This document shows positions 14,519-18,855 of a stretch of 39,671 nucleotides of DNA, in pieces. The notes beneath the pieces were generated by a model. The model saw nothing but the letters and a program-made list of their open reading frames with translations, searched no databases and was not told the origin of the DNA. The stretch is from Bdellovibrionota bacterium (lineage in GTDB: Bacteria; Bdellovibrionota; Bdellovibrionia; Bdellovibrionales; JAEYZS01): positions 1 through 39,671 of the forward strand of contig CAUJDY010000016.1 of assembly GCA_963169805.1 (NCBI GenBank), read 5' to 3'. The position numbers and the translations under genes are program-made. Each line of letters begins with the position of its first letter. Positions within the stretch are counted from its first letter, which is position 1.

Positions 14519-15573
14519 TATGGAACGTCTGATAGAACTTCTAAAATTGCTTCTTGTATATCATGCTTATGAGGTACGGAGGCTTCCTCAAGATTTGGGT
14601 GAAGGCCGATTCCAGGCACCTGCTTGCCTGCATGAACTTTTGGCCTTGCATAAAGATCATAAAATAATTCCTGAGTTGCTCTGTAAGCTAAATGTTCACC
14701 AAAGTTTGTAACCTCTGTATCTTCATTCACAAAAAGCACTCTTTTAGTTTTTAAAATTGATTTTTTAATAGTTTGCCAGTCATACGGATAAATAGATCTC
14801 AAGTCTATAACTTCTAAAGAGCGGCCATTTGCTTTCATTTCACGAGCGATCTCCTCACATATCAATAATGTGCGCCCATAACTTACAACAGTCAGATCTG
14901 TCCCTTCTTGTACAATTTTTGCTTTGCCAATCTCAACTCTATAATCTTGAACCAAAGGCCATTTTGCTTTCCATTGAGAACGATCTCCAAGTGGCGCATC
15001 TATCATATTTTTTAACTCTTGCTCACTCTCTGGCTCTCCAGGAATGAGGTCCTTTCCCTTTACTCTCATCAAAGCCTTGGGCTTTAAGTATAGTACCGGG
15101 TTTGGGTCCTCAATTGCTGAGAGCATAAGTCCGTATGCATCCAACGGATTTGATGGCATCACAATTTTCCATCCTGGTAATCTAGAAGCCCACGCATCAA
15201 GACTATGACTGTGATACATTGAACCACGAATTCCAGCCCCTACAGGAGTCATTACAACAAGCGGAAAATCCACTTGCCCATTCACTGCCCACTTCGTGTT
15301 ACCAATAATTTTAAGTAAATCTATTGTATTAAAAATATAATCACAAAATTGAATTTCAGCTACACAACGCTCGCCTGTCATAGCAATGCCTGTTGCCATA
15401 CCAATAATTCCTCTTTCATCAAGAGGTGTATTCCATGTTGTAGAGAGACCTTGAGTAGCAGTAAAAACTCCTCCTAAAGGAGCTCCAACATCTTGGCCAA
15501 AAATATCTTTTACATTGAGATGTTTTTCACCGTAATGAAGTGCGAGTCGAATCGCTTGCGCCATATTTGCCAT
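14518..15573 (-). CDS. 2-oxoacid dehydrogenase E1 component, beta subunit (TPP-dependent)
   Basis: 'FGQDVGAPLGGVFTATQGL', 'GIAMTGERCVAEIQFCDY', 'VLYLKPKALMR', 'TVVSYG', 'EVIDLRSIYPYD'. Confidence 0.9.
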   Translation of the reverse strand: MANMAQAIRLALHYGEKHLNVKDIFGQDVGAPLGGVFTATQGLSTTWNTPLDERGIIGMATGIAMTGERCVAEIQFCDYIFNTIDLLKIIGNTKWAVNGQVDFPLVVMTPVGAGIRGSMYHSHSLDAWASRLPGWKIVMPSNPLDAYGLMLSAIEDPNPVLYLKPKALMRVKGKDLIPGEPESEQELKNMIDAPLGDRSQWKAKWPLVQDYRVEIGKAKIVQEGTDLTVVSYGRTLLICEEIAREMKANGRSLEVIDLRSIYPYDWQTIKKSILKTKRVLFVNEDTEVTNFGEHLAYRATQELFYDLYARPKVHAGKQVPGIGLHPNLEEASVPHKHDIQEAILEVLSDVP

Positions 15574-16628
15574 TAGAACTTTCTCCAGTCTGCATTTTCA
15601 TTATTAGCGTAAACATGATCCCAAATAGATTCTGGAGTTGGTACAGGTTCTTTTCGAACAGTCTCCCAATCACGTTTCGATTGTTCATCATACTTTGTAT
15701 AAAGCTCTTTAATTGCAGATTCTTTAATGTAGTCATTCGACAAAAGTTTTTGTTCAAACATTTTAAGAGGGTCTTCTTCAAAGCTTACAAAATTAGCTCC
15801 TGAAGCAGAAGAGTGACCATACAATCGTGAGACAAATATTTCTGCAAGAACGGGTTTTCTTTCTTTACGAATATAGTCCATCTCTTCTTTCATTTTAATA
15901 TAGGATTCTTCTGGGTCATTCCCATATATCGTTGCTGTACGTATTCCAAAAGCCTTACCACGGTCAGCAATATACTTCTCCCCATGCTGACTATCATAGT
16001 CGGTAGATATTCCCCATTTATTGTTTTGAACAGTAATAAAAATCGGAAGTTCATTTCCAGGACGTGAGGACCAAACTAAGCAACTTGCAAAGTCTCCCTC
16101 AGCTGTACCCGCGTCACCGCCAGATACCACTGTAATTCCCTTTGCTTTATTTCTTTTTTGTACCCACGCAGTACCCAATGCATGGCCATACTGAACTTCA
16201 ATCGGGGATGTTACAGGTGCAACATTCCACTCTGGAAAACAATAGTGATTTGAAAAGTTTCTACCGCCTGTACATCTGTCTGTTGCGCGGTTCATGATGA
16301 GCCGAATAGAATCTATCATTTCCATACCCATTGCAATGAGTGTGGGGGTTGCACGGTAGTGCAAATGAAGCCAATCGTGTTGTATGCCTTGTCCTTTGTT
16401 AACAAGTAAACCAAGTGGCACACCGAATGCTTCCTCACCTGGGCCACCGATCCAGAAGAAAGCCTCTCCCATTTTGTAGATCTTAATAAGCCGCTCTTCT
16501 AAAACTCGCGACTTGACCATAAGATCATGCATGTAAAGAAGCTGTTCTTTTGGCAAATAAAATTTGTTTTTTTTTGCACTAGTAGACTGAGAGATCTTTT
16601 GCGAAGGCATAGCTTTAGTTTTTTCCAT
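15573..16628 (-). CDS. 2-oxoacid dehydrogenase E1 component, alpha subunit (TPP-dependent)
   Basis: 'YRATPTLIAMGM', 'VSGGDAGTAEGDFASCL', 'VQNNKWGIST'. ORF track extends to 16685 through a GTG inside a palindrome; ATG at 16628 (MEKTKAMPS) is more plausible. Confidence 0.88.
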   Translation of the reverse strand: MEKTKAMPSQKISQSTSAKKNKFYLPKEQLLYMHDLMVKSRVLEERLIKIYKMGEAFFWIGGPGEEAFGVPLGLLVNKGQGIQHDWLHLHYRATPTLIAMGMEMIDSIRLIMNRATDRCTGGRNFSNHYCFPEWNVAPVTSPIEVQYGHALGTAWVQKRNKAKGITVVSGGDAGTAEGDFASCLVWSSRPGNELPIFITVQNNKWGISTDYDSQHGEKYIADRGKAFGIRTATIYGNDPEESYIKMKEEMDYIRKERKPVLAEIFVSRLYGHSSASGANFVSFEEDPLKMFEQKLLSNDYIKESAIKELYTKYDEQSKRDWETVRKEPVPTPESIWDHVYANNENADWRKF

Positions 16629-16671
16629 AATAAATAGGTATGACAGGCGGGCCATCTTATCAACCCCCAAA

Positions 16672-16748
16672 AGATACGGCGCCACTGTTGGTTTAGCTTT
16701 GCGTTATAATCTATAACGCAAAGCTAAACCAACAGTGGCGCCGTATCT
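16672..16748. repeat. Perfect 37-bp inverted repeat with 3-nt loop (77-bp hairpin)
   Basis: AGATACGGCGCCACTGTTGGTTTAGCTTTGCGTTATA (16672-16708), ATC, TATAACGCAAAGCTAAACCAACAGTGGCGCCGTATCT (16712-16748). Confidence 0.97.
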
Positions 16749-16749
16749 A

Positions 16750-18855
16750 TTAGTTATTTTTTTGGGCAACTACGTTGTCTTTTGGATTCACCACCAACCA
16801 ATCTGTCATAATATCTACAGCCTCATTAACATCTGGCCTTTTAAGATATTCTTCCAAACGCTTCTTTGGATCATTCCTGACAGCTTTTTTCTCTTTTTCT
16901 TCTTTCTGCTTTTCTTTGTCGTCTAAGATATCTTCAAGGCTCACAACTTTGCCTTTTTTAATCGTTTTTTGAAGTTCAGTTTTTATTTTTTTGAACTCTT
17001 CATTTTTGGCAACTCGAGCCTCAGATTTTTTCTTAAGATCTGCAATCAACTTAGAATCTACCCTCTTCCAAGCGCCTTCACCTTTTTCAACAAACGCCTC
17101 TTTAGAAATAAATGATGGAATCTTTTTGGGATTTAAAGAATAGTCTAAACTCTTCTCTCCAAACTCATCTACTTCGAGAGCACTAGGTAATTTTATATCT
17201 GCAGTTACACCATCGTGTTGAGTTGTTTTGCCTCCCGGTACATAAAACATTCCGATAGTCACTTTATAGGCCCCTAAGTTTTTTGGAAGCGGCATCACAG
17301 TTTGAACACTCCCTTTTCCAAAGGTGTGATCTCCCCCTACGACGACAGCTCGACCGTAATCCTTCAGAGCTCCCGCGAAAATCTCACTCGCAGAAGCACT
17401 TGCTCGACTTGTTAAAACTACCAGAGGACCAGAATACTGAACCTCAGGATCTGTATCGGCGAGTACCTCTCCTGATCTCTCGTTAGCACCTTGAGTTTTT
17501 ACAATGTTCCCTGTTTTAATAAATAGACCTGTCAATTTCACAGCATCTTCAAGACTTCCGCCTCCATTTTGAGAAAGATCTAAAACCAAACCATCCACTT
17601 TCTCCGCCTGCGCTTCTTTTAAAAGTTTTTTTACGTCTTTATAACAAGAGCGTCCATCTGGATTTTTTGAGTCGTAATAAAAGGAAGGTAAGTTTAGAAC
17701 ACCAATTTTATGTTTTTTACCACCTACCTCTTTTGTCATGTAAGAGATTTGAGCAGCCTCATCATCTAAATTAATTTTCTGGCGAGTGAGAACAACCTTG
17801 AAAGTCTTCATTCCCTCAGGTCCTTTTCTCATGACAGTCAGATTCACCTTTGTACCTTTAGCACCGCGAATCAGCTTTACAACATCATTTAAAGGCATAT
17901 CTATTACAGGCTCCGGAGTACCAGAATCTCCTTGAGCAACCGCAATAATTTTATCTTGTGGCTCTAACTCACCAGATGCTGCAGCAGCACCTCCTGGAAT
18001 CAACTGCTCAATAACCGTATAGCCATCTTGCGAAGAAAGGGTCGCTCCGATACCCTCAAGGGAGAGATTCATATGTATATTAAAATCCTCCAAACCATCA
18101 GCTGTATAGTATGTGGAATGTGGATCTAAAGCATTTGCAAATGCATTCAAGAAAGAGGCATAAACTTCCCCTTCCGGAGTTTCTTTTAATCTTTTTATAG
18201 ATCTGTCGTACCTTCTCTCAACCCATCCTTTTGCTTCATCTTCTTTCATATCCGTTGAGATGAAATTCGCCACCTGAAACTGAACATATTTCTGTTGGAA
18301 GTCCTCAAGTTCTTTTTTATTTTTTGCATATTTCTTTTTCTGCGCATCCAACTGCAGAGTTGTTTTCTTATCAAGTTTGAAACCTTTTTTGATGTAACCT
18401 TTTGCAAAGTCACTCATTTCGGTAACTCTTTGAACGTAAAGCTTTTGAACTTCATCAATCGGACCACACTCTTGCTTAACGAGCCATTTATCCATGTCTT
18501 TCAATTTTGATTTTATAGATTGCACATCAGCATCGGTAAAATACGACTTCAATGGGTCCATAGATTTTATATACTGTTCAATAGTTCTATTCTTTATTTC
18601 TGAAGTAATTTGATTATGGACCATGTGGTATCTCAGCATTGCTCCCATAATCAGATAGATGTAGCGACAAGAGAGTTCACTTTTTAAAATTCTTTTTGTG
18701 ACGGCAGGATCAAGCGGAGTTTTAATTGCTCCCTCTGGTTTGTCGGTCTTGGACTTTTCAGGATCAATTTGCGAACTTTTAACTTCTTTCTGCTCCTGCG
18801 CATAAGAAGAATTAAACACTAATGAGAGAGCAATTACCAAAGCTGTAAACTTCAT
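16750..18855 (-). CDS. prc: S41 family C-terminal processing (tail-specific) protease, PDZ domain, signal peptide
   Basis: 'LSLEGIGATLSSQDGYTVIEQLIPGGAAAASGELEPQDKIIAVAQGD' PDZ; 'GLVLDLSQNGGGSLEDAVKLTGLFI', 'LTSRASASASEIFAGALKDYGRAVVVGGDHTFGKGSVQ'. Confidence 0.93.
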   Translation of the reverse strand: MKFTALVIALSLVFNSSYAQEQKEVKSSQIDPEKSKTDKPEGAIKTPLDPAVTKRILKSELSCRYIYLIMGAMLRYHMVHNQITSEIKNRTIEQYIKSMDPLKSYFTDADVQSIKSKLKDMDKWLVKQECGPIDEVQKLYVQRVTEMSDFAKGYIKKGFKLDKKTTLQLDAQKKKYAKNKKELEDFQQKYVQFQVANFISTDMKEDEAKGWVERRYDRSIKRLKETPEGEVYASFLNAFANALDPHSTYYTADGLEDFNIHMNLSLEGIGATLSSQDGYTVIEQLIPGGAAAASGELEPQDKIIAVAQGDSGTPEPVIDMPLNDVVKLIRGAKGTKVNLTVMRKGPEGMKTFKVVLTRQKINLDDEAAQISYMTKEVGGKKHKIGVLNLPSFYYDSKNPDGRSCYKDVKKLLKEAQAEKVDGLVLDLSQNGGGSLEDAVKLTGLFIKTGNIVKTQGANERSGEVLADTDPEVQYSGPLVVLTSRASASASEIFAGALKDYGRAVVVGGDHTFGKGSVQTVMPLPKNLGAYKVTIGMFYVPGGKTTQHDGVTADIKLPSALEVDEFGEKSLDYSLNPKKIPSFISKEAFVEKGEGAWKRVDSKLIADLKKKSEARVAKNEEFKKIKTELQKTIKKGKVVSLEDILDDKEKQKEEKEKKAVRNDPKKRLEEYLKRPDVNEAVDIMTDWLVVNPKDNVVAQKNN

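Follow-up and report, generated by a model that had tools for sequence, protein, structure and literature searches.

A perfect palindrome beside prc in a Bdellovibrionota bacterium belongs to a multicopy repeat family that also flanks a RAYT-type transposase gene

Results

A long palindrome lies between the prc and E1-alpha genes

The window, that is, the whole stretch of 39,671 nucleotides that was analysed, is contig C16 of G000, a draft assembly of 159 contigs. Between a protease gene and a pyruvate dehydrogenase gene it carries a palindrome of 77 bp (Table 1), the only inverted repeat with a comparably short loop in the window. Positions 16672-16708 pair perfectly with positions 16712-16748, and the arms extend to 40 nt if one mismatch is allowed (16669-16708 / 16712-16751, 98%). 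About 3e-16 stems of at least 37 bp with a loop of up to 20 nt are expected by chance in the window. Folded as minus-strand RNA, the palindrome reaches -72.8 kcal/mol (z = -16.3). These results confirm the coordinates, the exact 37-bp stem and the 3-nt loop proposed in the first-pass annotation, and assignment by open reading frame and domain agreed with it that both flanking genes lie on the minus strand.

Table 1. Features of the prc-E1 junction (positions in the window)
Feature	Position	Strand	Remark
S41 (Tsp/Prc-type) C-terminal processing protease	16750..18855	-
REPIN-like / TIR-dimer type palindromic element, perfect 37-bp stem, 3-nt loop	16672..16748	.
Outer end CCAAAA, conserved in the family on the left side	16667..16672	+
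Left family arm GATACGGCGCCACTGTTGGTTTAGC (family consensus GGTACGGCGCCACYGTTGGTTTAGC)	16673..16697	+	own-genome arm-core matches
Inner left arm TTTGCGTTATA, copy-specific	16698..16708	+
Loop ATC	16709..16711	.	5-10 nt in other complete copies
Inner right arm, complementary to inner left arm	16712..16722	-
Right family arm, exact reverse complement of the left	16723..16747	-
Pyruvate dehydrogenase E1-alpha type gene, start 16655 or 16628, downstream of the protease	15573..16655	-

The protease stop codon TAA (16750-16752) immediately adjoins the right arm; beside it, the right-hand counterpart of the conserved outer end, TTTTGG, is changed to TATTAG. The mechanically delimited E1 frame starts at a GTG (16685) within the palindrome; the gene itself probably starts elsewhere. 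The apex does hold TATAAT at 16705-16710, where the first-pass annotation had placed it, but the promoter that this hinted at was not borne out, a sigma-70 promoter scan having found none at that motif. The hairpin is followed by TCTTTTGG, giving an RNA tail UCUUUU (the terminator criterion being at least 5 T in 8), and the terminator scan, which counts at most 20 stem pairs, did not call it. A search of the palindrome against Rfam gave no family match. The hairpin would seem to have little or only a secondary influence on the transcript across prc and E1, and it may incidentally act as a terminator or stabilise the RNA.

The palindrome is one copy of a repeated element

Copies of the element were counted by pattern searches of G000. 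The 20-nt core of the arm occurred in 16 places at up to 3 mismatches (9 forward, 7 reverse) and its reversed control in none; a shorter, 18-nt arm pattern occurred in 20 places, the last three with 2-3 mismatches. This search of the arm in its own genome, a check proposed in the first-pass annotation, shows that the palindrome is a short repeat present in several copies, each of about 80-100 bp. Besides the window copy, palindromes were found at C40, C19, C30 and C94, together with a copy at C101 that is cut by the contig end; all five have unique flanks, and the other palindrome copies carry inner sequences that differ from that of the window copy. The layout is common to the family: the consensus CCAAAAGGTACGGCGCCACYGTTGGTTTAGC leads into an inner arm that is particular to each copy, then come the loop and the inverted second half, and the short palindromic dimers are near-perfect, with arms of about 32-42 bp. 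The copies at C81, C101, C120 and C151 sit at contig ends; since the assembly breaks at several copies, the copy numbers are lower bounds.

The copies are extragenic, lying between open reading frames or at their ends. Many in G000 start 1-4 bp from a stop codon (L233, L235, L231, L239, L229, L170 and others), and at some sites the TAA or TGA is apparently supplied by the outer bases of the element itself. The copies inspected by eye showed no apparent target-site duplication. Inspection of the family arms also revealed neither a GT[AG]G foot or GTAG tag nor a GGGGWSAS motif, and a single arm is not a significant hairpin (fold z -0.4 and -0.2). Two half-elements, on C26 (L011, ~691-770) and C36 (L013, ~1044-1120), consist of one arm followed by another tail; they have in common a differing ending, AAAAAGTCGGCAGGCGCCTTT, as if fused to another repeat.

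Outside G000, a search of 39 relatives with the arm pattern gave matches with 2-3 mismatches only, about as many as for the reversed control. Across GTDB, the exact 18-mer pattern gave 7 scattered matches in unrelated phyla, a number that chance could explain for a degenerate 18-mer searched over ~257 Gb.

The same arms flank a RAYT-type transposase gene

On contig C84, a frame of 636 bp lies between two mutually identical 44-bp arms of the same family. Its protein matches Pfam Y1_Tnp above the cut-off and NCBIfam REP_Tyr_transpos with an E value of 4e-13, under the curated cut-off. All 13 such proteins that we aligned match REP_Tyr_transpos; in the alignment the HxH motif does not vary, and the Tyr region downstream of it is conserved too. 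A phmmer search of the PDB with the single C84 protein found no match, and the sole PDB match of the RAYT profile was TnpA_REP (4er8, E 8e-13). Judged by its sequence, the C84 gene is a Y1/HUH tyrosine transposase of the RAYT (TnpA_REP) type. Its arms have the outer ~27 nt and a TTTGCGT tail in common with the arms of the short palindromes, and differ from them in between (GAGA versus TAGC). The inner left arm of the window copy retains this tail, the inner end of the arms around the C84 gene.

RAYT homologues were found in 29 of the 40 genomes of the order that we examined. An inverted repeat of 12-57 nt, mostly of at least 19 nt, surrounds the gene in 43 of 48 RAYT-type loci tested, and one of the five loci with none reported is truncated by the contig border; a RAYT therefore normally has arms around it, and RAYTs with such inverted repeats occur throughout the order, which is apparently Bdellovibrionales. 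A search of plasmids returned only transposases 26-30% identical, and a search of phages none.

G000 contains a second family, based on GGTACGCCGTACCTTTNGG, with its own RAYT at C135 (L093/L099) between inverted copies. Its other sites are on C50, C72, C125, C27, C36 (at 25040), C44, C56, C109, C118, C121 and C139, and its single unit is itself a hairpin (fold z -3.8). Two further RAYT loci, on C144 and C63 (L094 and L095), have inner inverted-repeat tails, TAGGGGTTATTTTTGATYTGA, in common, and their outer ends differ partly from each other.

The two arms change together at nearly all variable pairs

Alignment of the copies with MAFFT misplaces the inner arms; symmetry was hence scored from the outer end inwards, with the five complete copies (C16, C40, C19, C30 and C94) kept in register. 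Eleven stem pairs vary between these copies, and both arms change together in 10 of the 11, in a count that ends where the stem of each copy ends (at most one mismatch) and so itself favours paired positions. The single one-arm change is at position 23 of copy C30, where it leaves a T-T mismatch; no G-T pair occurs among the variable pairs of the five copies. Two-sided change of the arms is nearly, not wholly, complete. Published REPINs likewise show paired changes (PMC3116915), and template-switch correction between inverted repeats has been described as a route to arm homogenisation. Probably such template switching, or fold-back copying of one arm from the other, maintains the near-perfect symmetry, and not stepwise compensatory mutation.

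The same junction in related genomes

The flanking genes, taken as the longest neighbouring open reading frames irrespective of curated annotation, were located in G001, G002 and five other genomes with fused protein queries. The prc and E1 genes are neighbours in G001 and G002 too. In G001, which belongs to the same family, ~18 bp separate the protease stop from the presumed E1 start and contain no hairpin, and the more distant relatives have no long palindrome between the two genes (best stems 3-11 bp). G002 is the closest available relative and has the most similar protease. Its prc-E1 gap holds a different inverted doublet, built on the 21-mer AAAAGGTGAGCCGCACCTTTT, which occurs in 54 places in that genome at up to 2 mismatches (at 3 mismatches, mainly the same places appear on the opposite strand). 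Ends of this type bracket a RAYT gene in G002, and the single unit folds with z -4.1. This family is the larger one; the units of its doublets are mostly 55-58 bp apart, and its single repeats end in a nearly invariant tail, CCAAAGGTTTGCGTCA.

The comparison of empty sites suggested in the first-pass annotation thus gave two answers: the gap of G001 is without the palindrome, whereas that of G002 is occupied by another family. Because the nearest relative is also occupied here, it is doubtful that the palindrome was recently acquired, as one of the first-pass alternatives had it. Single-copy conservation across species, which had been named as an argument against a mobile origin, is absent, since two genera carry different multicopy families at this junction and a third carries no palindrome.

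Three further sites, at C40, C120 and C139, are also occupied in both G000 and G002, each by the genome's own family and at nearly the same position; at C139 the G000 element belongs to the second family, and both genomes have a single unit and no doublet. In other genera, the four shared junctions are without such repeats where they can be read, and at C120, where G000 and G002 carry repeats, G001 and G009 show ordinary hairpins that resemble terminators. Five second-family sites of G000 (C72, C36:25040, C56, C125 and C27) have no element between or beside the G002 orthologues, and at most other first-family sites the synteny with G002 is too poorly conserved for a judgement. An overlap at four sites would have a probability of ~4e-4 among 2400 equal junctions and of 0.02-0.06 among 600 permissive ones, these site numbers being approximate and the shared sites having been noticed during the comparison rather than predicted beforehand. 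In G009, a repeat of another RAYT family lies at C1:183589-183610 (L312), near the 3' end of a distant match (27% identical) to a gene next to the C40 site, and may be a coincidence.

Discussion

Very probably, the palindrome between prc and E1 is a non-autonomous repeat that is mobilised as a dimer of RAYT-element ends by the C84 transposase. Two end sequences of the RAYT element, in inverted orientation, would meet tail to tail in it and enclose no gene. As a single strand, the element would fold into one long hairpin; the C84 RAYT would then act in trans, nicking at the hairpin foot, and paste the element elsewhere, often directly after stop codons. We infer both that this RAYT moves the palindrome and that the movement passes through single-stranded DNA. 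Of the origins considered in the first-pass annotation, an insertion of the MITE/REP-like kind is thus the one that gains support, from the multicopy family and from arms that match the ends of a RAYT element.

The kind of element is already known; the members of this family are new. Closest to it are the TIR families of TIRtrons and TIRYTs (PMC3733652), in which a RAYT-type gene is likewise flanked by long TIRs without GTAG, and the TIRs are repeated in the genome, many of them as dimers. The arms here differ from these in lacking GGGGWSAS, which is common in those TIRs though not required, and in forming near-perfect palindromes with arms of ~32-42 bp. Di Nocera et al. (2013, PMC3733652) do not mention Bdellovibrio, and a literature search on Bdellovibrio and RAYT found no relevant report.

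With REPINs (Bertels and Rainey 2011, PMC3116915), the element has in common an inverted doublet that gives one long hairpin, a multicopy extragenic distribution, a RAYT flanked by the same repeat, and an inner part that varies, with matching changes in the two arms. In REPINs, however, each repeat is a REP with a GTAG/GTGG foot and a hairpin of its own; here there is no GTAG tag and no significant hairpin in a single arm. The copies also number about ten instead of hundreds, and the arms are symmetric almost throughout. Classical GTAG REPs and BIMEs with TnpA_REP (E. coli; 4er8) resemble the family in their homologous transposase and in being extragenic inverted repeats beside its gene, but again the family arm lacks both the GT[AG]G foot and a significant single-arm hairpin. 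Since there is neither a GTAG tag nor a significant fold of the single arm, the classical rule of RAYT recognition is not simply transferable. MITEs of ordinary DDE insertion sequences likewise contain no gene and share their terminal inverted repeats with a transposase element; here, in contrast, the transposase is of the Y1/HUH type and no target-site duplication is apparent. We therefore file the element under the RAYT-linked TIR-dimer type and call it REPIN-like, because it lacks the marks of classical REPs, matches TIRYT dimers and would work like a REPIN.

A refinement compatible with mobilisation by a RAYT concerns the age of the site. The insertion between prc and E1 may predate the split between this genus and G002, and the family of a different RAYT may then have overwritten the old repeat in place in one or more lineages; we regard the case for this as evenly balanced. 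It would account for the occupation of C16, C40, C120 and C139 in both genomes by their own families at about the same position, with no such repeats at readable junctions of other genera, and the overlap has the low chance probabilities given above. Parallel insertion into hot spots is nevertheless an alternative, no intermediate or mixed copies came to light, and the published model predicts that new repeats spread while the old remain in place and decay (PMC3686654). We slightly favour an old occupied site with a replaced repeat over parallel insertion at preferred sites, and the occupation of the same sites by different families suggests that old REP sites were replaced by new families.

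It is also conceivable, though in our judgement unlikely, that the hairpin is an RNA element selected by the host between prc and pyruvate dehydrogenase (a terminator, an attenuator or a protector of mRNA ends), and that its spread is secondary. The RNA hairpin is indeed very stable, yet it has just the UCUUUU tail, was left uncalled by a scan limited to 20 stem pairs and has no match in Rfam. The many copies 1-4 bp from stop codons and the four sites occupied in two genera would suit such a role, as would the C120 junction, with terminator-like hairpins in G001 and G009 and repeats in G000 and G002, but the more distant relatives do without a palindrome of this sort between prc and E1, and several second-family sites of G000 are empty in G002. 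Finally, the fold-back artefact of assembly raised in the first-pass annotation, which a 159-contig draft with copies at four contig ends might invite, is extremely improbable: the genes on either side of the window copy are different and also lie next to each other in G001 and G002, the remaining copies differ in inner sequence and are uniquely flanked, and G002 has a palindrome at the same place.

Read as a mobilised RAYT-end dimer, the odd and potentially unstable palindrome is explained by transposon ends. Its variable stem pairs change on both sides almost without exception, which offers a way to tell template-switch correction from compensatory selection. More tentatively, and on balance with somewhat less confidence than we place in the age of the prc-E1 insertion, REP-type sites may outlive their families: insertion sites rather than sequences would be inherited, an active RAYT family would replace the sequence in place at the same junctions across genera, and arm symmetry would be renewed by copying from arm to arm. 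The mechanism by which REP families replace one another is described as unknown in the RAYT literature consulted here, and the four shared loci are concrete cases in which it can be tested. The results indicate that RAYT elements with long inverted ends, together with their gene-less dimers, are common in what appear to be Bdellovibrionales.
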